This document shows positions 2,703 through 64,000 of a DNA stretch of 64,000 bases, one piece after another (position 1 is the stretch's first letter; each line of letters begins with the position of its first letter). Below the pieces are notes generated by a model. The model had not been told where the DNA came from. It ran no database searches and worked only from the letters and a program-made list of their open reading frames with translations. Both the position numbers and the translations under genes were made by a program. This stretch comes from Knoellia locipacati (lineage in GTDB: Bacteria; Actinomycetota; Actinomycetes; Actinomycetales; Dermatophilaceae). Location of the stretch: assembly GCF_007992835.1 (NCBI RefSeq), contig NZ_BKBA01000004.1, positions 248,001 through 312,000 of the forward strand. The letters are read 5' to 3'.

Positions 2703-3125
2703 CTACTTCGCGAAGATCTGCGACTCGTCGGCGAAGGCCTTGAACTCCATGGCGTTGCCGGCGGGGTCGAGGAAGAACATCGTCCACTGCTCGCCGGGCT
2801 GGCCCTCGAACCTCAGGTAGGGCTCGATGACGAACGTCGCACCGGCCTCCTTCATCGTCGCGGAGAGCTCGTGGAAGTCGTCGATCGCGAGGACGGCGCC
2901 GAAGTGCGGCACCGGCACCTCGTGCGAGTCGACGTGGTTGTGCCCGGCGGGGCCGGGGTGGACGGCGACCTCGTGGGTCACGACCTGGTGGCCGAAGAAG
3001 TTCCAGTCGATCCACTGCTCGGCGGAGCGCCCCTCGGACAGGCCGAGCACGCCGCCGTAGAACGCGCGGGCGGCGGCGATGTCGTCTACGGGGATGGCGA
3101 GGTGGAAGCAGGGGCGAGCGGTCAC
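2703..3125 (-). CDS. VOC-family (glyoxalase/dioxygenase-fold) protein
   Basis: 140 residues. The GTG start at 3125 has a strong AAGGAGT ribosome binding site. The N-terminus (CFHLAIPVDDIAAARAFYGGVLGL) supplies the first metal ligand His, and the C-terminal motif FFLDPAGNAMEFKAF supplies the Glu. This is the beta-alpha-beta-beta-beta fold shared by glyoxalase I, extradiol dioxygenases and fosfomycin-resistance enzymes. A central DSHEVPVPHFG segment adds further His residues. It is co-transcribed with the GntR gene downstream, which suggests inducible use on one metabolite. The substrate cannot be read from the sequence. Confidence 0.82.
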   Translation of the reverse strand: MTARPCFHLAIPVDDIAAARAFYGGVLGLSEGRSAEQWIDWNFFGHQVVTHEVAVHPGPAGHNHVDSHEVPVPHFGAVLAIDDFHELSATMKEAGATFVIEPYLRFEGQPGEQWTMFFLDPAGNAMEFKAFADESQIFAK

Positions 3126-3161
3126 GGCATACTCCTTAGTGTTTGTGTGCAAGTGACTCAA

Positions 3162-3171
3162 ATGTATACAT
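3162..3171. promoter_or_regulatory. candidate GntR operator, perfect 10-base palindrome
   Basis: ATGTATACAT is a perfect palindrome with the GT..AC core expected for FadR-type GntR regulators. It lies 36 bases before the VOC start codon, in the divergent gap shared with the methyltransferase gene. It also contains a TATACAT-like -10 for the leftward operon, so binding would occlude RNA polymerase. Confidence 0.5.
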
Positions 3172-3224
3172 AAGTCCCTCGAGCGCACAAGAGCGAACCC
3201 CTCGTCGCCCCGGCGCACCGGGAG

Positions 3225-3230
3225 TAGCGT
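3225..3230 (+). promoter_or_regulatory. -10 hexamer (TAGCGT) for leaderless methyltransferase gene
   Basis: TAGCGT ends 7 bases before the ATG at 3238 and no Shine-Dalgarno sequence is present. The spacing predicts transcription starting at or next to the start codon. Confidence 0.5.
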
Positions 3231-3237
3231 CGTCGAC

Positions 3238-4483: not shown

Positions 4484-5217
4484 GCCCCGCCGTCGCCCGG
4501 CTCGGGCTGGCGCTGCTCAAGGGCAGCCGCCACCTCGACCGGAGCGAGATCGAGCTCGACGCCACCGGCCCTGTCGGCGACCGCACCTGGTGCCTCGTCG
4601 ACAGGGCCGCGGCGCGCGTCCTGCGCACCGTCGAGAACCCGCGCCTGCTCTCGCTCACCGTGCGACCGATCGACGGCGGCCTCGCCGTGACCACCCTCGG
4701 CGGGCGCACGAGCGAGGCGCAGGCGCGAGACGCGGCGGACGGCATGCCGGCTGCGGACTACTGGGGTCGCGGCGCGCGGATCCGGGTGCAGGACACCGCC
4801 CTCAACGCCGTCCTCTCCGACGTGCTCGGTCGCGAGGTCGTCCTCGCCCGCGCCGAACGCGGCGACGTCGTCTATGCCGACCCGGTCTCGATCGTCACCA
4901 CGGGCGCCCTGCGTCGCCTCGCGAGGACGCTGCGCGAGAACGGGTATGCCGTGCCCTCACCTCTCGATGCCCGCTTCCGGGCGACGGTGACGCTCGACGC
5001 CGACGAGGATCCGGCGTCGGGCACGCGGGTCCGCCTGGGCGACGCCGTCGTCGAGGTCACCGCGCCGCTGGAACGGTGCGCCGTCATCGACCTCGACCCC
5101 GCGACGGGCGAACGCACCGGCTCACGGCTCCTCGAGCACGTGCGCGCACCCGACGGACGGCTGCTCTTCGGGGTGGGCGCACGGGTCGTCACCCCCGGCA
5201 CCGTCCGCGTGGCGTGA
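4480..5217 (+). CDS. MOSC-domain protein (YcbX-like)
   Basis: 245 residues starting at a GTG that overlaps the OsmC stop codon. The N-terminal third (ELDATGPVGDRTWCLVDRAAARVL) is the MOSC_N barrel. The C-terminal MOSC domain carries the characteristic cysteine in APLERCAVIDLDPATGER near residue 203 and a closing LFGVGARVVTPGTVRV. MOSC proteins transfer sulfur or reduce N-hydroxylated compounds using molybdenum cofactor, often with a partner reductase; none is adjacent here. Coupling with OsmC suggests a detoxification role, which is an inference from position only. Confidence 0.8.
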   Translation: MSPAVARLGLALLKGSRHLDRSEIELDATGPVGDRTWCLVDRAAARVLRTVENPRLLSLTVRPIDGGLAVTTLGGRTSEAQARDAADGMPAADYWGRGARIRVQDTALNAVLSDVLGREVVLARAERGDVVYADPVSIVTTGALRRLARTLRENGYAVPSPLDARFRATVTLDADEDPASGTRVRLGDAVVEVTAPLERCAVIDLDPATGERTGSRLLEHVRAPDGRLLFGVGARVVTPGTVRVA

Positions 5218-6357: not shown

Positions 6358-6408
6358 GCTCGTTGAACACTCAACCGCCCCGCCGTATGCCGTCACCCCC
6401 ACCCACCC

Positions 6409-6964: not shown

Positions 6965-7046
6965 GTCCGCGCCCACCGCGCCGGACGTGCTGGATCCCAG
7001 CAGCTCCCCCGCGGAGGTGAGGCGCCAGCGCTCCGGGGCCCACGGC

Positions 7047-7060
7047 ATACGCATATGTAT
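7047..7060. promoter_or_regulatory. candidate MarR operator ATAC-N6-GTAT
   Basis: An imperfect palindrome with matching ATAC and GTAT ends lies 27 bases before the MFS start and overlaps both a CGGCATAC motif and a TATGTAT-like -10. The position suits repression by the upstream MarR product. The match is too short to be certain. Confidence 0.35.
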
Positions 7061-7086: not shown

Positions 7087-8316
7087 ATGACCTCCCCCAC
7101 CGAGACCTCGATGTGGCGCCAGCCGCGTCCCGTCTGGGCGGTGGCCTTCGCCTCCGTCATCGCGTTCATGGGGATCGGCCTCGTCGACCCCATCCTCAAG
7201 CCCATCGCCGACGAGCTGGGGGCCTCGCCCTCGCAGGTGTCGCTGCTGTTCACGAGCTACATGGCGGTCATGGGTGCGGCGATGCTCGTCACCGGCGCCG
7301 TGTCGAGCCGGATCGGTGCCAAGCGCACCCTGCTCACCGGGCTCGCGATCATCATCGTCGGCTCCGCGCTCGCCGGCACCCAGGACGGCGTCACCGGCAT
7401 CGTCGCGTTCCGCGCCGTGTGGGGGCTGGGCAACGCGCTCTTCGTGGCGACCGCGCTCGCGACCATCGTCCGCTCGGCGCGCGGCTCGACGGCGCAGGCG
7501 ATCATCCTCTTCGAGGCGGCGCTCGGCGTCGGCATCGCGACCGGCCCGCTCATCGGCGGCCTGCTCGGGGAGCTCTCGTGGCGCGGACCGTTCTTCGGCG
7601 TCGCCGGCCTCATGGTGCTCGCCCTCGTCCTCACGACGGTCATGCTGCCGCCGACCCCGCCCGCCGCGAAGCCCACGAGCCTCGCGGACCCGTTCCGTGC
7701 CCTGAAGCACCGCGGGCTGCTCACCGTCGCGATCACGGCGATGCTCTACAACTTCGGCTTCTTCACCCTGCTCGCGTTCACGCCGTTCCCACTGGGGCTC
7801 GGCGCGATCCAGATCGGCCTGATCTTCTTCGGGTGGGGCCTCATGCTCGCGTTCTCGTCGGTCTTCGTCGCGCCGCGGCTGCAGCACCGCTTCGGCACGC
7901 TGCCCTCGATCTGGGCCGCGATGACGATGTTCGCCGTGATCCTCGCCGTCATGGCGCTCTTCACGACGTCCAAGCCGACCCTCATCGTCGGGGTCGTCCT
8001 GGCCGGCTTCGCCCTCGGCATCAACAACACGCTCATCACCGAGGCCGTCATGAAGGCGGCGCCGGTCGAGCGCGGTGTCGCCTCCGCGGCCTACAGCTTC
8101 GTCCGGTTCTCCGGTGGCGCAGTCGCACCGTGGCTCGCCGGCAAGCTCGGCGAGGAGGTCAGCGCGCACGTGCCGTTCTGGGTCGGCTCCGGTGCCGTCG
8201 TGCTCGCCATGGTCGTCCTGTATGCCGGTCGCACGGCTCTCGCGCACCTCGACCGTGAGGAGTCGGTCGAGGATGAGCGGCTCGACGAGGCGATGGCGCT
8301 CTCGCTCACCGACTGA
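7087..8316 (+). CDS. MFS efflux transporter (DHA1-like)
   Basis: 409 residues with about 12 hydrophobic segments, the normal MFS exporter size. The start ATG at 7087 has GGAAAGG upstream. Segment 1 reads AVAFASVIAFMGIGLVDPIL, followed by the loop-2/3 region SQVSLLFTSYMAVMGAAML and the segment-5 motif GVGIATGPLIGGLLGELSWRGPFF, which resembles the antiporter motif C of drug:proton antiporters. It is an inner-membrane exporter probably regulated by the preceding MarR gene. The substrate is unknown; substrates of MarR-linked exporters are usually hydrophobic xenobiotics. Confidence 0.87.
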   Translation: MTSPTETSMWRQPRPVWAVAFASVIAFMGIGLVDPILKPIADELGASPSQVSLLFTSYMAVMGAAMLVTGAVSSRIGAKRTLLTGLAIIIVGSALAGTQDGVTGIVAFRAVWGLGNALFVATALATIVRSARGSTAQAIILFEAALGVGIATGPLIGGLLGELSWRGPFFGVAGLMVLALVLTTVMLPPTPPAAKPTSLADPFRALKHRGLLTVAITAMLYNFGFFTLLAFTPFPLGLGAIQIGLIFFGWGLMLAFSSVFVAPRLQHRFGTLPSIWAAMTMFAVILAVMALFTTSKPTLIVGVVLAGFALGINNTLITEAVMKAAPVERGVASAAYSFVRFSGGAVAPWLAGKLGEEVSAHVPFWVGSGAVVLAMVVLYAGRTALAHLDREESVEDERLDEAMALSLTD

Positions 8317-8389
8317 CCCCGGCGCCGCCGGTGGAGGGCAGGGAGCCCACCGGATCGTGCGTGGGAGGGGTCTGCGCCTAGCAGAAACT

Positions 8390-9640: not shown

Positions 9641-9643
9641 CCC

Positions 9644-11254
9644 TTGCTCCAGATGTCCGGAATTCGCAAGACGTTCGGGCCGGTCGTGGCTCTCGACGGG
9701 GTCGACTTCACCGTCGCCGACCGCGAGATCCACGGCCTGCTCGGAGGCAACGGCGCAGGCAAGACGACGTTGATGAACGTCCTCTACGGCCTCTACGCGC
9801 CCGATGCCGGGACGGTGTCGATCGACGGCAGCGCCGTCGACATCCAGTCCCCGAAGGACGCGATCGCCGCGGGCATCGGCATGGTCCACCAGAACTTCCT
9901 CCAGGTGGACGTCTTCACCGTCGCCGAGAACATCGTCCTCGGCACCGACTCCACCGGCCTCACCGCCGCGGACGGCTCGCCCCAGACCGCCACCCAGCGG
10001 ATCACCGAGCTGTCCGAGCGGTTCGGCCTGTCCGTCGACCCGTCGGCGCGGGTCGCCGACCTCCCCGTCGGCGTCCGTCAGCGGGTCGAGATCCTCAAGG
10101 CGCTCTACCGCGGGGCCAAGGTCCTCGTCCTCGACGAGCCGACGACCAACCTCACCCCGCAGGAGGTCGACGACCTCTTCAGCTCGATGCGCGCCATCGT
10201 CGACGACGGCATGTCGGTCGTCCTCATCACCCACAAGATCCGCGAGACCATGGAGGTCTGCGACCGGATGACGGTGATGCGGGACGGCCGGTGGATCGCC
10301 ACCGTCGACAAGGCCGACACCACGGCCGACGACCTCGCCTCGACCATGATCGGCGAGGTTGCCGGCAGTGACGCCGACGCCGCAGCGCTCGCGGAGGCGG
10401 CGCAGGTGGCACTCGGCGAGGAAGACCTCGGGGAGGCCTCCCTCACGCACCCCCTCCCGGGTGCGTCGGAGGCCCGGCCCGGAGGTGGCGCCGCGGATCC
10501 GGTGGCCCAACCCCCTGCCAGGGTCACCGTCCGCGGCCTCACCGTCGCCGGACCCGGAGGCAAGCCGCTCGTCGACGACGTCACCCTCGACCTGCGTCCC
10601 GGCGAGATCCTCGGCATCGCCGGGGTCGCCGGCAACGGCCAGGGCGAGCTCGCGGAGGCCCTTACCGGCACCCGCACCGCCTCCGGCTCGCTCACCGTCG
10701 ACGGCGACGAGCTCGTCGGCCGGCCCACCGCGACGTGGCTGCGCAGCGGGGTCGTCTACGTCCCCGAGGACCGGCAGCGCGACGGCATACTCCCCGGAGC
10801 CGGCATCACCGAGAACCTCGTCCTCGGCTCGCACCGGACCCGAGCGAAGGCCGGGATGATCAACTGGCGCGCGGCGCGCGCCGAGGCCGTCGAGGCGATC
10901 AAGGAGTTCAGCGTCAAGACGCCGAGCGCCGCGACCGCCTGCGGGCAGCTCTCCGGTGGCAACATCCAGCGCGTCATCCTCGCGCGGGCGTTCGCCCACA
11001 ACCCCAAGCTGCTCCTGCTGCACAACCCCACCCGCGGGCTCGACATCCGCTCGACCCAGTTCGTCTACGACCGGGTGCGCAACGCTGCGGCGCAGGGCTG
11101 TGTCGTCATCGTCATCTCCGAGGACCTCGACGAGGTGCTGGCCCTGGCCGACCGCGTCACCGTCGCCTACTCGGGCCGTCTCGTGGGCGAGTTCCCGCGC
11201 GGCGAAGCAAACCCCTACGACCTCGGTCGACTCATGACAGGAGTCGGCGCATGA
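9644..11254 (+). CDS. ABC importer ATPase, two fused nucleotide-binding domains
   Basis: 536 residues. Domain 1 has a complete Walker A (GGNGAGKTT, about residue 35), signature LPVGVRQRVE and Walker B VLVLDEPT (about 162). Domain 2 is degenerate: GVAGNGQGE replaces the Walker A lysine with Gln, and LLLLHNPTRGLD replaces the Walker B Asp-Glu with His-Asn, while its signature LSGGNIQR is intact. Loss of one catalytic site is known for this BMP/sugar importer ATPase class. The TTG start is 3 bases after the lipoprotein stop; an ATG at 9653 is an alternative. The stop overlaps the next start (ATGA). Confidence 0.9.
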   Translation: MLQMSGIRKTFGPVVALDGVDFTVADREIHGLLGGNGAGKTTLMNVLYGLYAPDAGTVSIDGSAVDIQSPKDAIAAGIGMVHQNFLQVDVFTVAENIVLGTDSTGLTAADGSPQTATQRITELSERFGLSVDPSARVADLPVGVRQRVEILKALYRGAKVLVLDEPTTNLTPQEVDDLFSSMRAIVDDGMSVVLITHKIRETMEVCDRMTVMRDGRWIATVDKADTTADDLASTMIGEVAGSDADAAALAEAAQVALGEEDLGEASLTHPLPGASEARPGGGAADPVAQPPARVTVRGLTVAGPGGKPLVDDVTLDLRPGEILGIAGVAGNGQGELAEALTGTRTASGSLTVDGDELVGRPTATWLRSGVVYVPEDRQRDGILPGAGITENLVLGSHRTRAKAGMINWRAARAEAVEAIKEFSVKTPSAATACGQLSGGNIQRVILARAFAHNPKLLLLHNPTRGLDIRSTQFVYDRVRNAAAQGCVVIVISEDLDEVLALADRVTVAYSGRLVGEFPRGEANPYDLGRLMTGVGA

Positions 11255-12402
11255 GCACCGACGTGACCCAGGCCCCCGAGGCCACCGACGTCACCGACGT
11301 CGCGGCCGCCCCGCCGCTGGCGCAGCGCGCGCGTTCGCTCGCCTTCGCAGCCATCCCGTATGCCGTCGCCGTCCTGGCCGCGTTCGTCGTCGTCGCCGTC
11401 CTCATCACGGTCCTCGGGCACGACCCCGTGGCCGCGTTCCGGGCCGTGCTGACGAACTCGTTCCGCAACCAGACCGGCATGGTGCAGACGCTGCACAAGT
11501 GGGCGCCGCTCACGCTGCTCGCGCTGGCGTTCGCCATCCCGCTCGGCGCGGGCCGGTTCAACATCGGTGGTGAGGGCCAGATGATCCTCGGCACCGTCGG
11601 CGCAGCCGCGGTCGGCATCACGATGTCGGACCTGCCGATGGTCATCCTGCTGCCGCTCGTGCTCGTCGTCGGCACGCTCGCCGGCGCCGTCTGGTCGGCG
11701 ATCTCGGCCTGGCTCATGGAGTCGTTCAAGATCAACGAGATCCTCTCGACGGTGCTGCTCAACTTCGTGTCGTTCGAGGTCCTCGACTACGTCGCGTCCG
11801 TCGTCTGGTCCGACCCCGGTGCCGGTGGCGCGGTGACGCTGCCCATCGGCGAGGGTGCGGTCCTGCCGGGCATCGGCCGCCCGCCGATGCACACCGGTGT
11901 CCTGCTCGTGCTGCTCGTCTCGGTCGTCGCCGCGGTCATGGCGAAGCGGTCGGTCGCCGGCTTCGAGCTGCGCGCCGTTGGTCTCAACGAGCGGGCGTCC
12001 AAGCTCCACGGCATCCGCACCGGCCGCGTCGCGGTGACGTCGATGATCGTCGCCGGTGCGCTCGCCGGTCTCGCCGGCGCCATCGAGGTGGCCGGTGTCC
12101 ACCAGCGCACGCTCGAGGGCATCCAGTCCAACTTCCTGCTGCTCGGCATCATCATCGGGCTCATCGCCCGCGGCTCGCTCACGGCCGTCCCGTTCGTCGC
12201 GTTCGGCATCGCCGTGCTCGAGGTCGGCGCCGGCTCGATGCAGCGCGTCTCGGGGGCGCCCGTCGAGATCGTCCTCATTCTCGAGGGACTCATCCTGCTG
12301 TTCCTGCTCATGTCCGACGTCGCCACCGAACGGTGGCGGCGGGCCAGACAAGCACGGGCCTCACGTGCGAAGTCCCAGCTCACGAAGGGAGCGGTGGCAT
12401 GA
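11251..12402 (+). CDS. BMP-type ABC importer permease 1
   Basis: 383 residues with about 8-10 hydrophobic segments, matching the BPD_transp_2 permease family. Conserved parts are GAGRFNIGGEGQMILG, the EAA-like loop FELRAVGLNERASKLHGI and VAGVHQRTLEGIQSNF. The ATG at 11251 overlaps the ATPase stop and follows ACAGGAG. It would form the membrane channel as a heterodimer with the next permease, energised by the fused ATPase. Confidence 0.9.
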   Translation: MSTDVTQAPEATDVTDVAAAPPLAQRARSLAFAAIPYAVAVLAAFVVVAVLITVLGHDPVAAFRAVLTNSFRNQTGMVQTLHKWAPLTLLALAFAIPLGAGRFNIGGEGQMILGTVGAAAVGITMSDLPMVILLPLVLVVGTLAGAVWSAISAWLMESFKINEILSTVLLNFVSFEVLDYVASVVWSDPGAGGAVTLPIGEGAVLPGIGRPPMHTGVLLVLLVSVVAAVMAKRSVAGFELRAVGLNERASKLHGIRTGRVAVTSMIVAGALAGLAGAIEVAGVHQRTLEGIQSNFLLLGIIIGLIARGSLTAVPFVAFGIAVLEVGAGSMQRVSGAPVEIVLILEGLILLFLLMSDVATERWRRARQARASRAKSQLTKGAVA

Positions 12403-13277
12403 GTGAGTTCCTCACCCTGACCATCACCGCGATGGTGCCGTTCCTGTTCGTCGCGCAGGGCACGATGCTCAGCGGTCGCGCCGGCATCTTCAACGTCGCG
12501 CAGGAGGGGCTCATGCTCCTCGGCGCCGCGGTCGGCTACATCATCTCGCTCAAGGCCGGGGGTAACGTCGTCGGCATCATCGCCGCCGCGCTCGCCGGCG
12601 CCGTCGTCGGCTTCATCCTGTCGTGGGCGACGACCTCGCTCCGGCTCGACCAGTTCGTCGTCGGCCTGGCGCTGTTCTTCCTCGCCGGTGGCACCGCGTC
12701 CCTGCTCTACCGCGTCGTCATCGGCAACGACGAGCCGCCGCGCATCGCACCGCTGCCCGAGCTCATCCTCGGCCAGGACGCGATGGTGTTCGTCGCGCTC
12801 GCGCTGTCGGGCTTCCTGTGGTGGTGGCTCTACCGCACCGACGCCGGCATGCGCCTGCGCTCCGTCGGCGAGAACCCCAAGGCCGCGGACTCGCTCGGCA
12901 TCAACGTCGCCCGCACCCGCATGTGGGCCGGCACCGTCGGTGCCGCGCTCATGGCGGTCGGTGGCGCCTACCTCCCGATGGTCTTCTCGGGCGTGTATGC
13001 CGATGGGATCGTCGCGGGTCGAGGCTGGCTCGCGATCGCGCTGGCGTTCTTCGGTGGCTGGCGTCCGCAGTACATCCTCGCCGGGTCCGCGTTCTTCGCG
13101 GCGATGGAGGTGCTCGCCCAGCGGGCGCAGGTCTCGGGCGTCGGCATCCCCCACCAGTTCGTCTCGATGCTGCCCTACATCGCGACGCTGGCCGTCATGG
13201 TCTTCGCCCTCCGGTGGGCGCTCGTGCCGCAGTTCCTCGGCAAGAACTACGACCGCGAGTCCCGCATCGTCGGCTGA
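12399..13277 (+). CDS. BMP-type ABC importer permease 2
   Basis: 292 residues with about 8 hydrophobic segments. It contains the family hallmark LSGRAGIFNVAQEGLMLLGA near the N-terminus and RLRSVGENPKAADSLGINV as the ATPase-coupling loop. The ATG at 12399 overlaps the permease 1 stop (ATGA) and follows GAAGGGAGCGG. It pairs with permease 1. The operon ends with the hairpin at 13290-13325. No purine or pyrimidine salvage gene is adjacent, so the nucleoside-like substrate rests on family membership. Confidence 0.9.
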   Translation: MSEFLTLTITAMVPFLFVAQGTMLSGRAGIFNVAQEGLMLLGAAVGYIISLKAGGNVVGIIAAALAGAVVGFILSWATTSLRLDQFVVGLALFFLAGGTASLLYRVVIGNDEPPRIAPLPELILGQDAMVFVALALSGFLWWWLYRTDAGMRLRSVGENPKAADSLGINVARTRMWAGTVGAALMAVGGAYLPMVFSGVYADGIVAGRGWLAIALAFFGGWRPQYILAGSAFFAAMEVLAQRAQVSGVGIPHQFVSMLPYIATLAVMVFALRWALVPQFLGKNYDRESRIVG

Positions 13278-14921: not shown

Positions 14922-15332
14922 TCAGCGCAGCGCGGGCACCCGGCGGCACACGGCATACGTCACGCCGGAGGCGACGGCGGTCGCGACGGTGCCCCACGCG
15001 AGGTCCACCGCGACGATCGACGCCGGGAAGCCCTCGATCACGGCGAGGTTGGTGAGGTCCCACGTCGCGTAGGCCACGAAGCCCATCAGTGCACCGCTCA
15101 CGAGCGCCCGGCGGCCGGACTCCTCGGCCAGCGCGGGGGTCGTGACGAAGTACGTGATGCCGATGACGTAGATGACGTAGAACGCCGCCGCCGCAAGGGC
15201 GTTGGGCCGCGTGGCGAGCAGGTCGCCGAGCGCCTCGTCGTAGATCGGTCGCCCGATGACACCCAGCCAGAGACCGTCGAGGACACCGAAGGCGACGGCG
15301 ACGACCACGAGCCGGCCGAGCTGGCGCCCCAT
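14922..15332 (-). CDS. DUF2177 integral membrane protein
   Basis: 136 residues, almost entirely hydrophobic, with four predicted membrane segments. It contains the DUF2177 hallmarks DGLWLGVIGRPIY near the start and FVAYATWDLTNLAVIEGFP in the second half. The ATG overlaps the stop of the upstream lipase gene (TGATG), so translation is coupled. The function of the family is not established. The gene is convergent with the nuclease gene, 21 bases apart. Confidence 0.85.
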   Translation of the reverse strand: MGRQLGRLVVVAVAFGVLDGLWLGVIGRPIYDEALGDLLATRPNALAAAAFYVIYVIGITYFVTTPALAEESGRRALVSGALMGFVAYATWDLTNLAVIEGFPASIVAVDLAWGTVATAVASGVTYAVCRRVPALR

Positions 15333-16264: not shown

Positions 16265-16418
16265 TGACGGCTCCTGGGAAGGGTGTGGCTCGCGGCTGCC
16301 GACGCTACCGGGTGCGTGCCGCGCCGGTCCCACGGTGTGGCCGGGTTCTCCCCCTCCGGTATGCCGTGCCCCCGGTATGTCGTCCGTATGCCCGTCCGCC
16401 CCGGACACCCGGACACGA

Positions 16419-32514: not shown

Positions 32515-32537
32515 ACGGGACTGTCCGGGAGGGAGGC

Positions 32538-42227: not shown

Positions 42228-42275
42228 GGTATGCCGTGGGGCACCGTTCACGCGAACGGTGCCCCACGGCATACC
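42228..42275. terminator. bidirectional terminator palindrome carrying the GTATGCCG motif
   Basis: Perfect 22-base arms (42228-42249, 42254-42275) enclose a 4-base loop between convergent genes. The outer part of each arm is GGTATGCCGTGGGGC, sharing 14 bases with the palindrome at 24782-24824. Confidence 0.8.
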
Positions 42276-53969: not shown

Positions 53970-54538
53970 AGCGTCCGCAGCCACTCGATCGACCGCTCGA
54001 GCACGAGTCGGGTCGCACCCTCGTCGTAGTCCGAGAGCGAGCTGTCGGCGAACAGGTGCCCGTCGCCGGGATAGAGGAAGAGCGCGGCCTCGGGGTGCGA
54101 GTCGATGAACGGGCGCGCCGCCTCGAGGTCGCCCTCGTCGACGAAGAACGGGTCGGCGTCCATCGAGTGGACCTGCACCGGGACGCCGGACGGCCACTCT
54201 CCGAACTCCTTGGGGTCGACGAACGAGTGGTAGAAGAGCCCCCCGAGCGCACCCGGCCGGGTCTGGAGCAGCTGCTGCGCCGGCATCACGCCCAGGGAGA
54301 ACCCGGCATACACGAGGGCGTTCGGGAGGTCGTCCACGGAACGCACGCCTCGCGCGCGCACCTCCCCGAAGCCCACCTCCTTGCAGTACTCCGCGCCCTC
54401 GTCGATCGAGCCGAAGGTCCGGCCCTCGAAGAGGTCGGGGGTGTGGACGGTGTGGCCCGCCCCGCGCAGCGTGTCGGCGAACGCCGTGACGCCGGAGGTG
54501 AGGCCCTGGATGTGGTGGAAGAGCACGATCTCGGTCAT
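53966..54538 (-). CDS. dienelactone hydrolase-family protein
   Basis: 190 residues. It begins TEIVLFHHIQGLTSGVTAFADTLRGAGHTVHTPDLFEGRTF, the DLH fold. The nucleophile elbow is YAGFSLGVMPAQ near residue 80 (Ser in place of the DLH Cys), with Asp in MDADPFF and His in YPGDGHLFAD. ATG 54538 is preceded 6 bases upstream by TAGGTT (complement 54545-54550). First gene of a three-gene coupled operon with two DinB-type proteins, divergent from the WYL regulator. Confidence 0.9.
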   Translation of the reverse strand: MTEIVLFHHIQGLTSGVTAFADTLRGAGHTVHTPDLFEGRTFGSIDEGAEYCKEVGFGEVRARGVRSVDDLPNALVYAGFSLGVMPAQQLLQTRPGALGGLFYHSFVDPKEFGEWPSGVPVQVHSMDADPFFVDEGDLEAARPFIDSHPEAALFLYPGDGHLFADSSLSDYDEGATRLVLERSIEWLRTL

Positions 54539-54608: not shown

Positions 54609-55577
54609 ATGACCCTCGATGCCGCCCTCGTCGACGCCAGCCCGACCGCCCGGGCGCTGCGGGCGCTCGAGCTCATCCAGGGACAGCCCGGCATCACCGC
54701 GGACCGGCTCGGCGACCGCCTCGGTGTGACCCCACGCGCGGCCCGGCGCTACGTCGCGACGCTGCGGGAGGCCGGCATACCGATCGCCTCGGTGAGCGGA
54801 CCGGCCGGCGGCTACCGGCCCGGGCGCGGTCTGCGACCCCCGCCCGTCGTCTTCACCCCCGCGGAGGCGCTGGGCCTCGTCATGGCCGTCCTCGACGGGC
54901 ACCACGACCCCGACGACGCCGACGACCCGGTCGGCAGCGGGATCGGCAAGATCCTGCGCACCCTCCCCGAGTCCGTTGCGGCACAGGCCGAGACGGTCCG
55001 ACGCGTCGCCGCCCCGGTGCCCGACAGCCCGGATGCCCGACCTGCCCCGGAGTCGACCGCGACCCTCGTGCGCGCCTGCGCCGACGGGCGCGAGGTCCGC
55101 ATCGACTACCGCACCGAGGCCGGGCGTGAGCTCCTGCTCGAGGTCCAGCCGTGGGCGGTCGTCGTGCGCCACAGCCGGTGGTACCTCCTGTGTCACTCGC
55201 TCACCTCGGACGCGACCCGCGCCTACCGGATCGACCGGATCCGCCACGTCTCGCTCCTCGCGGGCACCTTCACCCCGCCACCCGACCTCGACCCCGTCGC
55301 CGCGCTCGTGCGCCACCTCGGCGAGGGCTGGGACTTCCCCGTCGAGGTCGTCGTCGACGCGTCGGCCGAGCGGGTGACCCAGTGCATCCCGACGACGATG
55401 GGCCGCGTCGAGCCCGTCACCGACGAGACGTGTCGCCTCGTCGGGAGCACGAGCAACCCGCGCTCGTATGCCGCGGACCTCGCCACCCTGCCCGGCGCCT
55501 TCCGCGTCGAGCGGGGCGACGAGGTCAGGGACGCGGTGCGGGCCCTCGGTGAGAGGCTGCTCGCCGCCGCAGGATGA
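54609..55577 (+). CDS. WYL-domain transcriptional regulator (YafY/DeoR-like HTH)
   Basis: 322 residues. The HTH reads ARALRALELIQGQPGITADRLGDRLGVTPRAARRYVATLREAGIPIASVSGPAGGYRPG. The WYL domain contains EVQPWAVVVRHSRWYLLCHSLTSDATRAYRIDRIRHVSLL (WYL is here the WYLLCH segment), followed by the WCX C-terminal extension. WYL proteins sense nucleic acids or nucleotides or act as ordinary repressors. It is divergent from the hydrolase-DinB operon with the operator-like repeat at 54556-54582 between them. The translation start ATG 54609 agrees with the family N-terminus. Confidence 0.9.
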   Translation: MTLDAALVDASPTARALRALELIQGQPGITADRLGDRLGVTPRAARRYVATLREAGIPIASVSGPAGGYRPGRGLRPPPVVFTPAEALGLVMAVLDGHHDPDDADDPVGSGIGKILRTLPESVAAQAETVRRVAAPVPDSPDARPAPESTATLVRACADGREVRIDYRTEAGRELLLEVQPWAVVVRHSRWYLLCHSLTSDATRAYRIDRIRHVSLLAGTFTPPPDLDPVAALVRHLGEGWDFPVEVVVDASAERVTQCIPTTMGRVEPVTDETCRLVGSTSNPRSYAADLATLPGAFRVERGDEVRDAVRALGERLLAAAG

Positions 55578-55643: not shown

Positions 55644-56054
55644 ATGGGGACGTACCCGGCATACCTGCACACGGTCCTGGACTGTCGACGGCCACGAGAG
55701 CTCGCCGAGTTCTACCGGCAGCTTCTCGGGCTGTTCTACCGCCCCGGCGACGAGCCGCCGACCGACGGGAGCCCCGACGACGCCGACTGGCTCGTGCTCA
55801 CCCGCCCTGACGGCACGCGGCAGCTCGCCATCCAGGAGGAGCCCGAGCACCGCGCCACGACCTGGCCCGACCACACGGTGCCGCAGCAGCTGCACGTCGA
55901 CTACCTCGTCGGCAGCGTCGAGGAGCTCGAGCGGCACAAGGACGTCGCGCTGGGCCTCGGCGCCGAGCTGCGGCTCGACCGCAGCGACGACGAGGAGCCG
56001 CTCTACGTCCTCGCCGACCCCGCCGGGCACACGTTCTGCCTGCTCGTCGGCTGA
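55644..56054 (+). CDS. VOC-family (glyoxalase-like) protein
   Basis: 136 residues. It begins TYPAYLHTVLDCRRPRELAEFYRQLLGLFY and ends LYVLADPAGHTFCLLVG, the Glyoxalase_6 pattern. ATG 55644 has GAGGGAG upstream. The gene follows the WYL regulator by 66 bases on the same strand. Substrate unknown. Confidence 0.87.
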   Translation: MGTYPAYLHTVLDCRRPRELAEFYRQLLGLFYRPGDEPPTDGSPDDADWLVLTRPDGTRQLAIQEEPEHRATTWPDHTVPQQLHVDYLVGSVEELERHKDVALGLGAELRLDRSDDEEPLYVLADPAGHTFCLLVG

Positions 56055-58582: not shown

Positions 58583-59946
58583 CCCTTGGTGGCCTCGAGC
58601 CGGCGCAGGGCCTCGCGCCGCTCCTCGGCGTGGTCGACGATCCGCTTCGGGTAGTCGTGGTCGTAGCCGTCGTCGTGCTCCCACGGCTGGTGCGCGGCCC
58701 TGCCCCGCAGGTGCGCGAGCTCGGGCACCCAGCGGCGCACGTACTCGCCGTCGGGGTCGAACTTCTCGCCCTGCGTCACGGGGTTGAACACCCGGAAGTA
58801 CGGCGAGGCATCCGTGCCCGTCCCCGCGACCCACTGCCAGCCGTGGTTGTTGGAGGCGATGTCTCCGTCGACGAGGTGGTGGAGGAAGTGCCTCGCCCCG
58901 ACCGGCCACCACACGTGCAGGTCCTTGGTGAGGAAGCTCGCGGTGATCATCCGGACCCGGTTGTGCATCCACCCCTCGGCGAGCAGCTGGCGCATGCCGG
59001 CGTCGACGATCGGGTAGCCCGTCGTCCCGGTGCGCCACGCCTCGACCGCGTCGGACTCGTCGTCGTAGGCCATCCCGTCGAGCGCATCGCGCAGGTCCTT
59101 CCACGCGCTGGAAGGGTTGTGCCACAGGACATCCGCATAGAACTCGCGCCATGCGAGCTCGGTCACGTAGGTTTCCTTGCCCTCGCCGCGACGGTTCGCG
59201 AGATCGGCCAGCAGCGTGCGCGGGTGCACCACCCCGAGCTTGAGGTAGGGCGACATCCGTGACGTCCCGTCGGTGCCCGGCAGGTCCCGATCGCCCTTGT
59301 ATGCCGGGAGCGCGTCCTCGAGGAACCCGCGCCACCGCGCCGCGGCCGCCTTCTCACCCGCGCCCGGCAGCTCGGGCAGGTCGGGCGCCGCCAGCGCCTC
59401 GCTCACCGCCCGGGTCGCCTCGGCGTCGTTGCGCGCCCTGCGTAGGGGCAGGCTCGACGGGCGGGGAGCCGGGTCGGGCCAGCCGTGCGACCGCCACGCC
59501 TTCGCGAACGGTGTGAAGACCTTGTATGCCGTCCCGCTCCCGTTGACGACGAGACCGGGCCCCACGGCATACGGGGTCCCCGTCTCGACCCAGTCCACGC
59601 CGGCGGCCGAGAGCGCCTCGGCGACGGCCTGATCCCGTCGGTGGCCGAACGGCGTCGTCTCGCGGGTCACGTGGACCGACGACGCCCCGACCCGCTCGGC
59701 GAGGGCGGGCAGCACCTCGAGCGGGTCGCCCCAGAGCAGGGTCAGGGCGTCGTCGTACTCCTCGTTGGTGGCCTCGAGCGTCGCGGCCAGCCAGGCCCGC
59801 CGCGCCGGTCCCGCGCCCTCCCACAGCGCGGGGTCGATGACGAAGGCCACGACGAGGTCACCGTCACCGGCCGCCTCACGCGCGGCGAGCAGGGCGGGGT
59901 GGTCGCTCCGTCGCAGGTCACGGCGCAGCCAGAGGATCGAGGTCAT
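58579..59946 (-). CDS. cryptochrome/DNA photolyase (class I CPD type)
   Basis: 455 residues. The N-terminal antenna domain starts SILWLRRDLRRSDHPALLAA. The FAD-binding domain has GRHG-type RMSPYLKLGVVHPRTLLADL, ELAWREFYADVLWHNP, GYPIVDAGMRQLLAEGWMHNRVRMITASFLTKDLHVWWPVGARHFLHHLVDGD and NNHGWQWVAGTGTDASPYFRVFNP, including the tryptophans of the electron chain. It repairs UV pyrimidine dimers with blue light. It is convergent with the penicillin-binding protein. Confidence 0.95.
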   Translation of the reverse strand: MTSILWLRRDLRRSDHPALLAAREAAGDGDLVVAFVIDPALWEGAGPARRAWLAATLEATNEEYDDALTLLWGDPLEVLPALAERVGASSVHVTRETTPFGHRRDQAVAEALSAAGVDWVETGTPYAVGPGLVVNGSGTAYKVFTPFAKAWRSHGWPDPAPRPSSLPLRRARNDAEATRAVSEALAAPDLPELPGAGEKAAAARWRGFLEDALPAYKGDRDLPGTDGTSRMSPYLKLGVVHPRTLLADLANRRGEGKETYVTELAWREFYADVLWHNPSSAWKDLRDALDGMAYDDESDAVEAWRTGTTGYPIVDAGMRQLLAEGWMHNRVRMITASFLTKDLHVWWPVGARHFLHHLVDGDIASNNHGWQWVAGTGTDASPYFRVFNPVTQGEKFDPDGEYVRRWVPELAHLRGRAAHQPWEHDDGYDHDYPKRIVDHAEERREALRRLEATKG

Positions 59947-60564: not shown

Positions 60565-61017
60565 ATGGAGACCGAGAACCGCGTCGTCAGCGCCAGCACG
60601 ACCATCGCCGCTCCCGCCGAGACGATCTTCGAGCTCATCGCGGACCCGCGTCGCCAGCCGGAGTGGGACGGCAACGACAACCTCGTCGAGATCATCAGGG
60701 GCGACCGGATCCGGGCCGTCGGTGAGGTCTTCGCGATGCGGACGACCAAGGGCAACCACCGCGACAACCTCGTCACGGACTTCGAGGAGGGTCGGCGCAT
60801 CGCGTGGCGACCGGGCGACGAGGGTGGGGCTCCTGCCGGTCACGAGTGGCGCTGGGAGGCCGAACCGCTCGAGGACGGCACGTCGCGCGTGACGCACACG
60901 TACGACTGGACCGAGCTCGCGGACGAGAGGCGTGTGCCGCGTGCCCGCGCGACGGGGGAGGCGCAGCTCCGCGCGTCGCTCGACCGGCTGGCCGCGCTCG
61001 CCGAGTCGCTCGCCTGA
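60565..61017 (+). CDS. SRPBCC-family (START/Bet v 1-like) protein
   Basis: 150 residues. The pattern RVVSASTTIAAPAETIFELIADPRRQPEWDG to EWRWEAEPLEDGTSRVTHTYDWTEL is the polyketide cyclase/SRPBCC fold, a hydrophobic-ligand-binding helix-grip. Members include cyclases, stress proteins and lipid carriers. No RBS is obvious; the ATG follows a GAGCAC sequence. The gene is convergent with the copper ATPase across an inverted repeat. Confidence 0.87.
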   Translation: METENRVVSASTTIAAPAETIFELIADPRRQPEWDGNDNLVEIIRGDRIRAVGEVFAMRTTKGNHRDNLVTDFEEGRRIAWRPGDEGGAPAGHEWRWEAEPLEDGTSRVTHTYDWTELADERRVPRARATGEAQLRASLDRLAALAESLA

Positions 61018-61029
61018 GCCAACTCTTCC

Positions 61030-61094
61030 CGACTGATTGCGCTGCTGGGACATGAGGAGCGCAGCGACGAGTGTCCCGGCAGCGCAATCAGTCG
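61030..61094. terminator. inverted repeat between convergent genes, sharing its arm start with 6409
   Basis: Arms of 23 bases (61030-61052 and 61072-61094) are complementary apart from one G-T pair, with a 19-base loop. Both arms begin or end with CGACTGATTGC, the same word that starts the 6409-6472 element. Confidence 0.75.
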
Positions 61095-61106
61095 AAGGGC
61101 ACGTGG

Positions 61107-63362
61107 TCAGCCCTCGGCGCGAAAACCCCTGAGGCGCAGGCTGTTGGTGACGACGAAGACCGACGAGAGCGCCATTGCCGCACCCGCGAGCATCGGGTTG
61201 AGCAGACCGGCCGCGGCGAGCGGGATGGCCGCGACGTTGTAGCCGAACGCCCAGAAGAGGTTGCCCTTGATCGTCGTCAGGGTGCGGCGGGCGAGCCGGA
61301 TGGCGTCGGGGGCGACGCGCAGGTCGCCACGCACGAGGGTGAGGTCGCTCGCCTCGATGGCGACGTCGGTGCCGGTGCCCATGGCCATGCCGAGGTCCGC
61401 CGTGGCGAGGGCGGCGGCGTCGTTGACCCCGTCGCCGACCATGGCCACGACCCTGCCCTCGTCCTGGAGGCGGCGGACGACGTCGACCTTGTCCTGCGGC
61501 ATGACGTCCGCGATGACGTTGTCGGCGTCGATGCCGACCTCGCCGGCGATCGTGCGCGCGGCGTCGACGTTGTCACCGGTGAGCAGCCAGGGCGTGAGGC
61601 CGAGCTCGCGCAGTCGCGAGATCGCCTGTGCCGAGGACGGTTTCACGCTGTCCGAGACGGTGAGGATGCCGCGCGCCTCGCCGTCCCAGCCGATCGCCAC
61701 CGCCGTGGCGCCGGTCGACCGTGCTCCGGCGAGCGCGTCCTCGAGCTCGGGCCCGACAACGATCGACCAATTGGTCAAGAGTTGCGGGCGGCCGATGACG
61801 GCGGCGTGCGAGTCCTCGCCCGGCACCGTGACGACGCCCTGGACGCCCAGACCGTCGATGCTCGTGAACCCCTCGACCGAGGCGAGGTCGGCGAGGTCGA
61901 CGCCCCGGTCGCGAGCGCCGGCCACGATGGCCCTGGCGACGGGGTGGTCGGACCCGTCCTCGAGCAGGGCCGCGATCCGCAGCACCTCGTCGGCGTCCTC
62001 GCCGGGGGCGGCCACCACCTCGTGCAGCGACATCTGGCCGGTGGTCACCGTGCCGGTCTTGTCGAGGACGACGGTGTCGACGCGTCGGGTCGACTCGAGG
62101 ACCTCCGGGCCCTTGATGAGGATGCCGAGCTGGGCGCCGCGGCCGGTGCCGACCATGAGGGCGGTCGGCGTCGCCAGCCCGAGGGCGCAGGGGCAGGCGA
62201 TGATGAGCACCGAGATCGCCGCGGTGAGCGCGGCCGTGCAGCCCGAGCCGGTGCCGAGCCAGAAGCCCAGCGTTCCGACGGCGAGGGCGATGACGATCGG
62301 GACGAAGATGCCCGAGATCCTGTCGGCGAGACGCTGGACCTCGGCCTTGCCGTTCTGCGCGTCCTCGACGAGACGGGCCATCTGGGCCAGCTGCGTGTCG
62401 CTGCCGACCCGGGTGGCGCGCAGGACGAGGCGTCCGCCCGAGTTCACGGTGGCGCCGACGACGGCGTCGCCGACCCCGACCTCGACGGGCACGGACTCAC
62501 CGGTGAGCATCGAGGCGTCGACCGCGGACGAGCCCGAGGTGACGACGCCGTCGGTGGCGACCTTCTCGCCGGGGCGGACGACGAACTCGTCGCCCACCGC
62601 GAGCTGCTCGACGGGGATGCGCTGCTCACGACCGTCACGCAGGACCGCCACGTCCTTGGCGCCCATCTCGAGCAGCGCGCGCAGGGCGGCGCCGGACCGG
62701 CGCTTGGCCCGGGCCTCGGCATAGCGCCCGGCGAGGAGGAACGTCGTCACGCCCGCGGCGGCCTCGAGGTAGATGTTGCCGGCACCGTCGCTGCGCTCGA
62801 TGGTGAGCTCGAACGGGTGCGTCATGCCCGGTGTCCCGGCGGTGCCGAGAAAGAGGGCATACAGCGACCACCCGAAGGCGGCGAGGGTGCCGACCGAGAT
62901 GAGCGTGTCCATCGTCGTGGCGCCGTGGCGCAGGTTGACCCAGGCCGCCCGGTGGAACGGCCAGCCGCCCCACACGACGACGGGTGCGGAGAGGACGAGC
63001 GAGAGCCACTGCCAGAAGGTGAACTGGAGCGCGGGCACCATCGCCATCGCCACGACCGGCACGGAGAGGACGGTGGAGATGAGCAGCCGGTCGCGCAGGG
63101 CCCGCGTCGGGTCGGTCGTGCCCTCGGCCGGCACGGCAGGTGCGTCGGGAGCGGGCGGCAGGGTCGCGGCATACCCGGCCTGCTCGACGGTCTCGAGGAG
63201 CTGCTCGGGCGACACGGTCTCGGGGAACTCGACGCGGGCCTTCTCGGTGGCGTAGTTGACGGTGGCGGTGACCCCCTCGAGCTTGTTGAGCTTGCGCTCG
63301 ATCCGGTTGGCGCACGACGCGCAGGTCATGCCGGTGATGTCGAGGTCGACGGTGGAGGTCAT
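61107..63362 (-). CDS. copA: copper-translocating P1B-type ATPase (CopA-like)
   Basis: 751 residues. A single N-terminal HMA domain ([17 protein letters not shown], residues 7-23) is followed by membrane segments, the actuator TGES, the transmembrane metal site [17 protein letters not shown] (CPC near residue 390), DKTGTVTTG (about 431), HP (SDHPVARA) and [10 protein letters not shown]. The CPC signature and C-terminal NxxxYN segment [39 protein letters not shown] identify a Cu+ exporter. The ATG overlaps the stop of the upstream gene (ATGA), so the two are translated together. Confidence 0.95.
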
Positions 63363-64000
63363 GGGAGCGCGTCCTCCTTCCAGGGTTGCAGGGGCGTGCC
63401 CGCCGTGAGCGTGAAGGCGGCGGTGCGGACGACGCCGGCGTGCTTGAAGTCGAGGAAGAGGCGGTAGGTGCCGCTCGTGGGCACCTCGGCGCCGAAGGTC
63501 ACGTCCGGTCCCGGGCGGGTCGTGCCGTCGCCGGGGTGGCCCTCGGGATGGACGTGCAGGTAGGCGAGGTCGCCGGTGCGCAGCGCGACGAGGTGGCCGT
63601 AGGCACCGAGGTAGGGGTCGAGGTCGGTCACCGGGGCGCCGCCGCGGCTCACCGAGAGGGTGAGGGCGGAGTCGCTGCCGGGGGTGAGGTCGCCCCGGAG
63701 CGTGACGGTGTAGCCGTCGACCGTCGCCGTGCGGAGGTCGTCGCGCGGGGACTGCGCCGCGACGTCGCTGCCAGGCACGAACAGGTCCGCGCCGAGCGTC
63801 ATCGGCGAGCCGCCCTTGGGGCTGAAGTCCGCGAGGACGCGCCACGCGCCGGGCGCGAGCCCGAGCGGCACGCTCCACGTCCCGTCGGCGGCGCGGGTCG
63901 GGTGGACGTGGTGGTAGCCACCGAAGTCGCGGCGCACGACGATGAGGTGGAGCTCCTTCTCGTGCTCGACGTCGTATGCCGTGACGGCCCTGCCGTCCGG
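63359..64000 (-). CDS. exported histidine-containing protein upstream of copA, 5' end beyond window
   Basis: At least 213 residues, open to the right edge in reverse. The visible part is mostly beta-strand and contains [18 protein letters not shown] and [18 protein letters not shown], two His-rich motifs suited to metal binding, with no Cys in the shown part. The C-terminus ([26 protein letters not shown]) is typical of periplasmic-type domains placed before CopA in actinobacteria. Its stop overlaps the copA start. A role in copper capture or handover outside the membrane is likely but unproven; the missing N-terminus should show the export signal. Confidence 0.6.

Follow-up and report, generated by a model that had tools for sequence, protein, structure and literature searches.

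A strand-balanced octamer with one-base dialects in Knoellia and other Dermatophilaceae: a possible self tag for DNA

The non-palindromic 8-mer GTATGCCG is strongly enriched in the DNA of Knoellia, is conserved at the DNA level within this genus, has one-base dialects in related genera and is partly arranged in hairpins. In the samples searched, it is confined to one family, the Dermatophilaceae, and its copies are spaced in an orientation-specific way in Knoellia and in most of the sampled relatives that carry GTATGCCG or GGATGCCG. We tentatively propose that it is a genome-wide self tag of the DNA-uptake type that serves natural transformation in Dermatophilaceae, and give this reading slightly less than an even chance. 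Uptake would follow the actinobacterial Tad-pilus/ComEA/ComEC route, and selection would act on the single strand entering the cell, each incoming strand needing a copy of its own; at distances up to about 1–1.5 kb, a further copy facing the same way would add nothing, and a copy on the other strand would be independent. Uptake bias, perhaps together with selection, may load both genome strands with copies, and changes of the reader would give rise to dialects. Transformation as the process, the single strand as the thing read and the existence of a reader protein are what we infer here. Put as a self-recognition code, in which each strand is stamped separately with an octamer of at least four one-base dialects and read on the incoming strand (transformation) or the resected strand (repair), the proposal is conceivable, although rather more doubtful than not.

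Self/foreign DNA tags have been discussed, in the parts of the literature covered, for Neisseriaceae and Pasteurellaceae, both of which have outer membranes, and to our knowledge tags of this sort have not been described before for the Knoellia group. If the proposal is right, GTATGCCG would be a first twice over: as an uptake-type or non-polarised Chi-type word that has dialects in Actinobacteria, and as a word of either type shown to be spaced by orientation. A dialect-bearing tag in Actinobacteria would lead one to ask how DNA is selected by a cell with a single membrane. The strand-by-strand spacing would be a handle on which step reads the tag, and sister species whose tags differ by one base, or which carry two spellings together, make co-evolution with a receptor directly testable. 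In practice, entry or recombination of DNA in Dermatophilaceae carrying the tag might improve when that DNA has the local spelling.

Abundance and DNA-level selection

The window, a 64,000-nt stretch of DNA from the soil actinobacterium Knoellia locipacati, contains 52 exact copies of GTATGCCG (28 plus, 24 minus; Table 1) against an expectation of 0.73, and the highest count among 100 shuffles was 3. An earlier note on this DNA had reached the same strand totals by hand, and the 11 coordinates it listed are correct within 1 bp; its figure of about two expected copies was too high, and the over-representation it claimed is larger than stated. The whole genome carries 2,535 copies (1,266 + 1,269) and only 99 of the reversed word (49 + 50), which counts for an uptake tag. 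The near equality of strands described in the same note was understated: the balance is tighter than chance allows.

Among the 8-mers of the window, GTATGCCG ranks first by log-likelihood score and second by z-score, behind its own shifted form ACGGCATA. The Markov count suggested earlier was run on 441 kb of own DNA, where the word ranks first under orders 1–3, second under order 4 and fourth under order 5; the 300 copies in this sample represent a 40-fold enrichment (7.5 expected), and the excess disappears at order 6 (289.5 expected) because the sub-words of GTATGCCG themselves set the expectation. Exactness is sharp, another point in favour of an uptake tag, since most of the 24 single-mismatch words are at or under background, the clear exceptions being GGATGCCG (80 vs 41) and GTAGGCCG (48 vs 22). 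The next base is frequently T, and the flanks hold little information past position 9.

Coding sequences contain 226 copies, against a mean of 11.0 and a maximum of 19 in 30 synonymous permutations, so that amino-acid pair usage, which had been named as the explanation that would undo the claim, does not account for the excess. Selection at the DNA level is supported by this result and by conservation: when sites were compared with related Knoellia loci, GTATGCCG was intact in 40 of 50 cases, as opposed to 14–32% for all 8-mers; both results count for an uptake tag. Several codon frames carry the word, Tyr-Ala and Ala-Tyr being the commonest, and the rare codons reported earlier are indeed there (ATA at 10783, 26962 and 54773; GCA at 39462, 40983 and 55657). 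For GGATGCCG, only 4 of 12 sites were intact between G034 and G036 (81% identity; 21% for all 8-mers); this is far less conserved than the word in Knoellia and counts against an uptake tag.

Some copies form terminator-like hairpins. Close inverted pairs number 19 in the own sample, where 4.5 were expected (at most 14 in 300 random placements); they take up 38 of the 300 sites, and 13 of the 19 lie 9–28 bp beyond a gene 3′ end, a position that counts for an uptake tag. Inverted pairs at transcript ends are reported for DUS and USS as well, according to passages of PMC12616744 and PMC3630211.

Spacing by orientation, dialects and known systems

Copies on the same strand in Knoellia avoid each other up to ~1.5 kb apart; those on opposite strands are placed independently. 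The seen/expected numbers for same-strand copies in own DNA are 15/47 at 46–499 bp, 19/51 at 500–999 bp and 29/51 at 1,000–1,499 bp, which counts for an uptake tag, and the opposite-strand ratio is about 1. Neighbouring sites alternate strand (161 to 59), and each strand has one copy every 2.8 kb, evenly spaced (gap CV 0.635 and 0.639). From same-strand exclusion together with opposite-strand independence, the word appears to be read in one orientation. The pattern recurs in most of the GTATGCCG/GGATGCCG relatives sampled; that it is weak in G034 and not clear in the two sampled GTACGCCG genomes counts against an uptake tag.

In a rough comparison, neighbouring USS gave 31 opposite to 61 same, that is, no alternation, and DUS gave 61 to 49 overall and 20 to 6 at 46–499 bp; neither sample showed same-strand exclusion overall, and exclusion in DUS is confined at most to distances below 500 bp, as opposed to 1–1.5 kb for GTATGCCG. 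The most striking feature of the word is thus not a known property of uptake sequences, a point against an uptake tag: by this rough yardstick its spacing depends on orientation, and it seems to be read from a single strand, in contrast to Neisseria and Haemophilus uptake sequences. Parts of PMC1939737 report USS uptake as orientation-independent. Uptake sequences are also reported to prefer one orientation within reading frames (in a portion of PMC2346458), unlike GTATGCCG, whose orientations in frames number 122 to 104.

In Dermatophilaceae, the spelling differs by one base between genera (GTATGCCG, GGATGCCG, GTACGCCG and GTATGCGG). All nine Knoellia genomes have GTATGCCG; many relatives bear thousands of copies of the word, and many others are without it or have another spelling. 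The comparison with related genera proposed in the earlier note thus yielded dialects inside the family, and an excess of GTATGCCG in none of the 345 genomes sampled from 19 other families. On the ComEC tree, GGATGCCG and GTACGCCG need at least two changes each, so the dialects are clade-like in part only. Near prophage portal genes, 8 sites were found against ~27.5 expected by arithmetic from host rates, in a small sample of five prophage-bearing genomes with a dialect-bearing host; this counts for an uptake tag.

HIP1 of cyanobacteria is a palindromic iterated octamer. GTATGCCG resembles it as an iterated octamer under selection in coding DNA, but it is not a palindrome, and the HIP1-like identity once suggested for it is rejected. 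KOPS and AIMS are chromosome-wide octamers, strand-polarised along replichores; GTATGCCG is chromosome-wide too, and its strand balance in the stretches sampled rejects both, in agreement with the earlier argument against KOPS-type polarity.

The earlier comparison with an uptake-type iterated motif fares better, supported by dialects, copy number and use of both strands. GTATGCCG has in common with DUS and USS its copy number, its presence on both strands without polarity, inverted pairs at transcript ends, dialects (partly clade-like), depletion in foreign DNA (small sample) and the accompanying competence machinery (not discriminating). The DUS of Neisseriaceae, as described in sections of PMC3630211, comprises roughly one to three thousand short, exact copies in coding and intergenic DNA, with inverted pairs at transcript ends and dialects inside one family; GTATGCCG is unrelated to it in sequence, and Knoellia is Gram-positive and without PilM. 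The USS of Pasteurellaceae likewise has a short core (a 9-mer, 1,471 copies in H. influenzae), about 10% of copies as inverted repeats and even spacing (as cited in the part of PMC1939737 covered), but also AT-rich flanking parts (per an excerpt of PMC12616744) that GTATGCCG does not have.

Machinery and competing explanations

In favour of an uptake tag, the Knoellia genome encodes ComEA and ComEC, and across the family ComEC is present in 180 and TadE in 181 of 186 genomes; in Micrococcus luteus, the transformation apparatus consists of tad genes and ComEA/ComEC (PMC4322843, in part). Against the uptake tag, com and tad genes are equally present in motif-free genera, which makes their presence no guide to the motif, and our literature search found no demonstration of transformation in Knoellia. 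No column of the ComEC and ComEA alignments tracks the GTACGCCG spelling beyond label shuffles, PilM was not found in Knoellia, and no receptor for GTATGCCG was found.

The spacing is also what a directional reader working from a DNA end would predict: AdnAB or another resection enzyme may read GTATGCCG on one strand, cease degrading there and let RecA load, each direction of travel needing its own orientation. The earlier note had dismissed Chi on strand balance; this disposes of a leading-strand-polarised Chi, but a non-polarised Chi-like site remains a live rival because the exclusion is orientation-specific, and we regard it as unlikely, if far from negligible. Like Chi, the word is an over-represented non-palindromic 8-mer, apparently read in one orientation and a few kb apart, and kindred spellings in kindred lineages are also Chi-like, judging by parts of PMC8022716. 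Adjacent genes of the own genome (L366:4815-7967 and 7967-11308) encode an AdnAB-like pair of UvrD-helicase/PD-(D/E)XK proteins, with relatives of both at 40 of 40 loci picked for carrying such a nuclease; the pair is not discriminating, since all 68 genomes tested gave PD-(D/E)XK nuclease matches, whether or not they carry the motif. We know of no response of AdnAB to Chi. RecC, the Chi reader, has no match in the nine Knoellia genomes; across the family it occurs in 89 of 186 genomes, both with and without the motif. E. coli Chi lies almost exclusively on the leading strand, with same-strand neighbours as a criterion (PMC8022716, same parts), whereas GTATGCCG is unpolarised, its neighbours alternate, and it has hairpins and several dialects; the repeated changes to GGATGCCG and GTACGCCG look faster than the conservation of Chi in Enterobacteriaceae described there.

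Even spacing on each strand and occurrence throughout Knoellia would also suit an organising or strand-marking site for another DNA-binding protein (nucleoid, repair strand mark or segregation), with a copy every few kb per strand. We consider this improbable, as the many relatives with no word or another spelling would be odd for an essential architectural site, and balanced strands in the sampled stretches oppose KOPS/AIMS-type polarity. A recognition site for a methyltransferase or restriction-modification system would fit a sharp, exact, non-palindromic word, but modification alone would give neither the 40-fold enrichment in several codon frames nor the dialects and strand-specific spacing, which makes it very improbable. 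An origin in codon or dipeptide usage, terminators or a recent mobile repeat, towards which the prevalence of Tyr-Ala and Ala-Tyr frames and the terminator-like hairpins might point, is refuted for practical purposes by the synonymous permutation (11 vs 226) and the small share of sites in close inverted pairs, and the flanks are near-uninformative.

Sites in the window

Table 1. Copies of GTATGCCG in the 64,000-nt window, with context and codon frame.
Context	Position	Strand
Gene edge	3125..3132	-
In gene, TAT GCC	4944..4951	+
Intergenic	6385..6392	+
Intergenic	7043..7050	-
In gene, TAT GCC	8220..8227	+
In gene, GGC ATA	10783..10790	-
In gene, TAT GCC	11358..11365	+
In gene, TAT GCC	12995..13002	+
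In gene, TAT GCC	14951..14958	-
In gene, TAT GCC	15565..15572	-
Intergenic	16359..16366	+
In gene, TAT GCC	19246..19253	+
In gene, TAT GCC	20940..20947	-
In gene, GCA TAC	21420..21427	+
In gene, TAT GCC	21788..21795	-
Inverted pair 1, left arm, 23 bp past gene end	24791..24798	-
Inverted pair 1, right arm	24808..24815	+
In gene, GGC ATA	26962..26969	-
In gene, ATG CCG frame	27078..27085	+
In gene, GCA TAC	31525..31532	+
Gene edge	32509..32516	-
In gene, GCA TAC	33951..33958	+
In gene, ATG CCG frame	34875..34882	-
In gene, TAT GCC	35631..35638	+
In gene, GCA TAC	36572..36579	+
In gene, TAT GCC	36889..36896	-
In gene, GCA TAC	39462..39469	-
In gene, TAT GCC	39718..39725	+
In gene, ATG CCG frame	40404..40411	+
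In gene, GCA TAC	40983..40990	-
Inverted pair 2, left arm, convergent genes either side	42229..42236	+
Inverted pair 2, right arm	42267..42274	-
Inverted pair 3, left arm, divergent genes either side, not past gene end	44166..44173	-
Inverted pair 3, right arm	44188..44195	+
In gene, TAT GCC	45021..45028	+
In gene, GCA TAC	47483..47490	+
In gene, TAT GCC	47707..47714	-
In gene, GGC ATA	47814..47821	+
In gene, TAT GCC	47979..47986	-
In gene, TAT GCC	48696..48703	-
In gene, TAT GCC	49721..49728	+
In gene, TAT GCC	51749..51756	+
In gene, CGG CAT frame	53035..53042	+
In gene, TAT GCC	54304..54311	-
In gene, GGC ATA	54773..54780	-
In gene, TAT GCC	55466..55473	+
In gene, GCA TAC	55657..55664	-
In gene, GCA TAC	59299..59306	+
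Close inverted pair 4, within gene, left arm, GCA TAC	59524..59531	+
Close inverted pair 4, right arm, TAT GCC	59565..59572	-
In gene, TAT GCC	63167..63174	-
In gene, GCA TAC	63974..63981	+

The empty stretch remarked on at 27.1–31.4 kb is real (27078 to 31525, 4,447 bp) but ordinary in length: of 260 gaps in the own sample, 6 reach 4,440 bp or more. A P-type cation ATPase gene lies within it.

Abundance and conservation of the word in Knoellia

The earlier note had counted the eight-letter word GTATGCCG in the window by hand (28 plus, 24 minus), and this count is exact, giving 52 copies vs 0.73 expected. The whole source genome (3,587,375 bp, 19 contigs) holds 1,266 + 1,269 copies vs 49 + 50 of the reversed word, i.e., the same letters backwards, used as count control. 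Among the 8-mers of the window, GTATGCCG is first by log-likelihood score and second by z-score, behind its own shifted form ACGGCATA. In 441 kb of the same genome (the window and 20 stretches; 300 sites), the proposed excess over a higher-order background stands at Markov orders 1-5, with the word ranked first at orders 1-3, second at 4 and fourth at 5; no excess is seen at order 6 because there its own sub-words set the expectation. The base following the word (position 9) is T in 60% of the 300 sites, with little other flank information. An apparent plus-strand run on contig C2 of this genome was a listing artefact (C2:40001-80000 counts 7/7 and 7/8). The literature searched, mostly without subscription papers and without preprints, gave no account of GTATGCCG or of uptake sequences in Dermatophilaceae.

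Selection at the DNA level, as originally proposed, is borne out by synonymous codon exchange: when protein sequences and codon usage were preserved, 30 trials left on average 11.0 copies within genes, and never more than 19, vs the 226 present. Genes were called by a simple purpose-made caller (409 genes, 88.5% coding in the 441 kb), and the word occurs at 0.58/kb within them and at 1.29/kb in intergenic DNA. It harbors 24 of the 32 ATA codons, 105 of the 199 TAT and 77 of the 904 GCA. Words with a single mismatch are mostly at or below background, the exceptions being GGATGCCG (80 seen, background 41) and GTAGGCCG (48, 22) and, on small numbers, CTATGCCG (13, 5) and GTATACCG (4, 1).

The source organism belongs to Knoellia (Dermatophilaceae): its ComEC shares 76-83% identity with the ComEC of six named Knoellia and of 'Janibacter' HTCC2649, and at most 65% with that of other named relatives, K. 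koreensis among them at 62%. When the comEC region was aligned with that of six Knoellia and of HTCC2649 (seven loci, 78-85% identity), own GTATGCCG sites were intact in 40 of 50 comparisons (7/9, 8/9, 8/9, 5/7, 4/6, 5/7 and 3/3 by locus), which are not independent since ten sites are re-used; for 8-mers in general, these alignments show 14-32% intact.

Pairs of GTATGCCG on opposite strands at most 45 bp apart number 19 vs 4.5 by random placement (maximum 14 in 300 trials). Fifteen of them lie outside called genes, 13 of these at 9-28 bp past a gene 3′ end, and such pairs take up 30 of the 74 sites that are not wholly intragenic (66 intergenic, 8 gene-edge). In many pairs the stems, judged by eye, match beyond the word itself. 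The same placement of inverted pairs past gene ends is described for the uptake sequences of Neisseriaceae (DUS) and Pasteurellaceae (USS) (PMC12616744, PMC3630211).

The genes at the motif-free gap of the window are listed in the table. A census of 10-mers in the window also brought out two palindromes, TCACCGGTGA, counted 10 over both strands (5 places) with 0.4 expected, and ACACCGGTGT, counted 6 with 0.1 expected; perhaps these are sites for a regulator.

Genes at the motif-free gap, in window coordinates
Feature	Start	End	Location
P-type cation ATPase gene	28236	30905	within the gap
ATP-dependent DNA ligase gene	30967	32514	far edge of the gap

Strand-by-strand spacing

Forward and reverse totals of GTATGCCG are more even than binomial over 106 genomes (chi-square 63.9; P 0.0004 for a value so low); for comparison, the reversed word gives 37.1 in 34 genomes and own GTATGCCG 9.5 in 43 ten-kb windows. 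Neighbours 46-2,500 bp apart are on opposite strands in 161 cases vs 59 on the same strand (P 4e-12). This opposite fraction of 0.73 compares with 0.46 +/- 0.06 across 134 words of 200-450 copies each, GTATGCCG included, the next highest reaching 0.60. Same-strand pairs occur at 0.32 of expectation at 46-499 bp, 0.37 at 500-999, 0.57 at 1,000-1,499 and 0.78 at 1,500-1,999 bp, and their ratio is back to 1 by 3 kb; opposite-strand pairs keep within 0.79-1.32. The deficit at 46-1,200 bp is present in every gene arrangement (same/opposite: 16/48 in one gene, 8/15 in opposite-direction genes, 14/29 in like-direction genes, 6/29 with an intergenic site), and is therefore a property of the DNA strand and not of the transcript.

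A second Knoellia, G078, shows same-strand counts of 5, 8 and 5 with 11, 12 and 12 expected. Loci of named relatives, not independent because orthologous regions are shared, give same-strand ratios of 0.30, 0.51 and 0.90, together with an excess (1.95) of minus-then-plus pairs at 46-499 bp. Among other genomes of the family, exclusion is weaker in G178 (0.54, 0.58, 0.90) and weak in G034 (0.73, 0.94); G109, with too few sites, has 1 seen and 3.8 expected, then 4 and 4.2. It is not clear in the two sampled genomes with the spelling GTACGCCG, G088 (7/11, 13/12 seen/expected) and G089 (10/9, 8/10).

As a yardstick, the same procedure was applied to pieces of IMG/VR contigs, 79 with USS and 48 with DUS, a rough comparison since these are hairpin-selected, short and provirus-rich: neighbours at 46-2,999 bp are opposite/same in 31/61 for USS and 61/49 for DUS vs 156/56 for own GTATGCCG. 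At short range DUS gave 20 opposite vs 6 same (46-499 bp), and 13 vs 3 at 1,500-1,999 bp. In gonococcus, single-stranded DUS is described as partly active in a strand-dependent manner, double-stranded DNA being preferred (PMC12061091).

Dialects across Dermatophilaceae and foreign DNA

All nine Knoellia carry 1,971-3,277 copies of GTATGCCG, and 106 of the 186 family genomes surveyed carry at least 400, exceeding the reversed word 2.5-fold to about 70-fold. Outside the family, none of 345 genomes of 19 other families (order-wide sample of 376 genomes, searched for GTATGCCG only) has more than 180 copies, and the ratio to the reversed word, taken on small counts, goes up to about 4. Named loci agree with this: around comEC (11.8-22.2 kb), the named loci counted, 32 of 79, include 20 of Knoellia, Pedococcus, Phycicoccus, Humibacillus and further relatives with 6-28 copies; Leekyejoonella has 5, and there are 0 in Nostocoides Soil756, in a single 3.6-kb piece, in Motilibacter and in Actinomadura.

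Other spellings were sought as over-represented words in motif-poor genomes and afterwards counted genome-wide. Nine genomes (G017, G018, G034-G037, G153, G158, G178) have 1,210-4,480 copies of GGATGCCG, the cut-offs being 1,210 copies and 4 times the reversed control; G153 and G158 (ratio 4.3) are uncertain because lower-copy genomes reach up to 6.6 (G104). Ten genomes (G002, G003, G012-G015, G083, G087-G089) have at least 1,125 and up to 4,185 copies of GTACGCCG, at least 6 times a control that is imperfect for GC-rich words, since several genomes with ~500 copies reach 5.7. G083 was rejected as a clear case: it stands at 12.8 times the control, yet has 21 copies vs 10 expected (Markov, 80 kb). 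In its stretches L108-L111, GTACGGCG and GTACGACG exceed GTACGCCG, each at about five times expectation, and its sisters have GTATGCCG. The spelling GTATGCGG is present in all four genomes of genus g13 (1,204, 511, 878 and 988 copies vs 107, 88, 97 and 87 for the control; 36 genomes searched). None of the four spellings is clear in 55 genomes of 17 genera, 13 of these wholly, and four more genomes are intermediate.

Two spellings occur together in G036 (2,195 + 1,217) and G037 (2,099 + 1,189). Between these sisters, in 13 kb compared, sites are intact in 14/14 one way and 14/17 the other, vs 64% of all 8-mers. Conservation outside Knoellia is weaker between G034 and G036 (81% identity), where 4/12 GGATGCCG sites of G034 and 0/5 GTATGCCG sites of G036 are intact, with all 8-mers at 21-22%. 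A tree built on ComEC from 52 genomes, with labels on 45 (G083, G019, G143, G146, G158, G036 and G037 omitted from labelling), requires 2 changes, i.e., gains or losses, for GGATGCCG, 3 for GTACGCCG (2 forced by well-supported branches), 1 for GTATGCGG and 7 for absence (6 forced); weaker labels give more changes.

HK97-type portal genes (PF04860) are found in only 9 of the 186 genomes. Within 10 kb of them, five dialect-bearing hosts show 8 host-dialect sites (G089 6, G119 1, G151 0, G174 0, G180 1) vs about 27.5 expected from host genome-wide rates, contig ends falling inside this range in three of the five.

Possible readings and candidate machinery

GTATGCCG resembles an uptake sequence in its copy number and exactness, its hairpins, its scarcity near prophages and its dialects within the family, but not in its orientation-specific exclusion; USS uptake is reported as orientation-independent (PMC1939737). 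Judged from sequence, the word appears to behave as uptake sequences do in most of the respects examined, and we do not claim membership of that class because the word's arrangement depends on orientation. This dependence implies a reader that either recognises a single strand or moves in one direction, over a reach of 1-1.5 kb.

It is possible, and we put it forward tentatively at somewhat under an even chance, that GTATGCCG is an uptake-type tag read on the single strand entering a Gram-positive cell. Reading on the incoming strand would reconcile the uptake-like traits with strand exclusion. A Chi-like site for a helicase-nuclease would fit the strand pattern equally well, even if Chi searches are described as expecting the reverse, neighbours on the same strand (PMC8022716); the turnover of dialects fits such a site less well, and we regard it as unlikely.

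In the source genome, comEA and comEC are adjacent and TadE has two matches; the transformation apparatus of Micrococcus luteus is described as tad genes with ComEA/ComEC (PMC4322843). As discriminating factors, ComEC (180/186 genomes) and TadE (181/186) were discarded as nearly universal, and PD-(D/E)XK nucleases, matched in 68 of 68 genomes tested, as universal there. The type IV pilus (PilM in 7/186) and RecC/RecBCD (patchy, 89/186) were likewise rejected, both being absent from Knoellia; RecC does not follow the motif, and in genera g41 and g14 both are present. None of com, tad, PilM, RecC and PD-(D/E)XK separates motif-bearing from motif-free genomes.

Among the PD-(D/E)XK matches listed, a protein of roughly 1,050 aa is often included, and in Knoellia it is a PD-(D/E)XK protein adjoining a second UvrD/PD-(D/E)XK protein. 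From their domains we read this adjacent pair as putatively AdnAB-like; it reached no NCBIfam cut-off. Its best GTACGCCG-tracking alignment columns score 0.75 vs shuffled maxima of 0.75 and 0.73, and are given no weight because the shuffles ignore kinship; its GGATGCCG columns are within shuffles. For ComEC and ComEA, the best GTACGCCG columns are within shuffled labels and the GGATGCCG columns rest on three genomes. No column of these proteins or the pair convincingly tracks spelling.

Genome G008 is both the only RecC carrier among the five of genus g4 and the only one without GTATGCCG. In its stretches L144, L166 and L167, GTAGACC occurs 40 times vs 5 in 60 kb, and GTAGACC[GT] is a possible further spelling. 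The motif-free G053 (genus g27) holds, in L112-L115, a dispersed repeat around GGCAATTCACACC with 13-15 copies in 80 kb.
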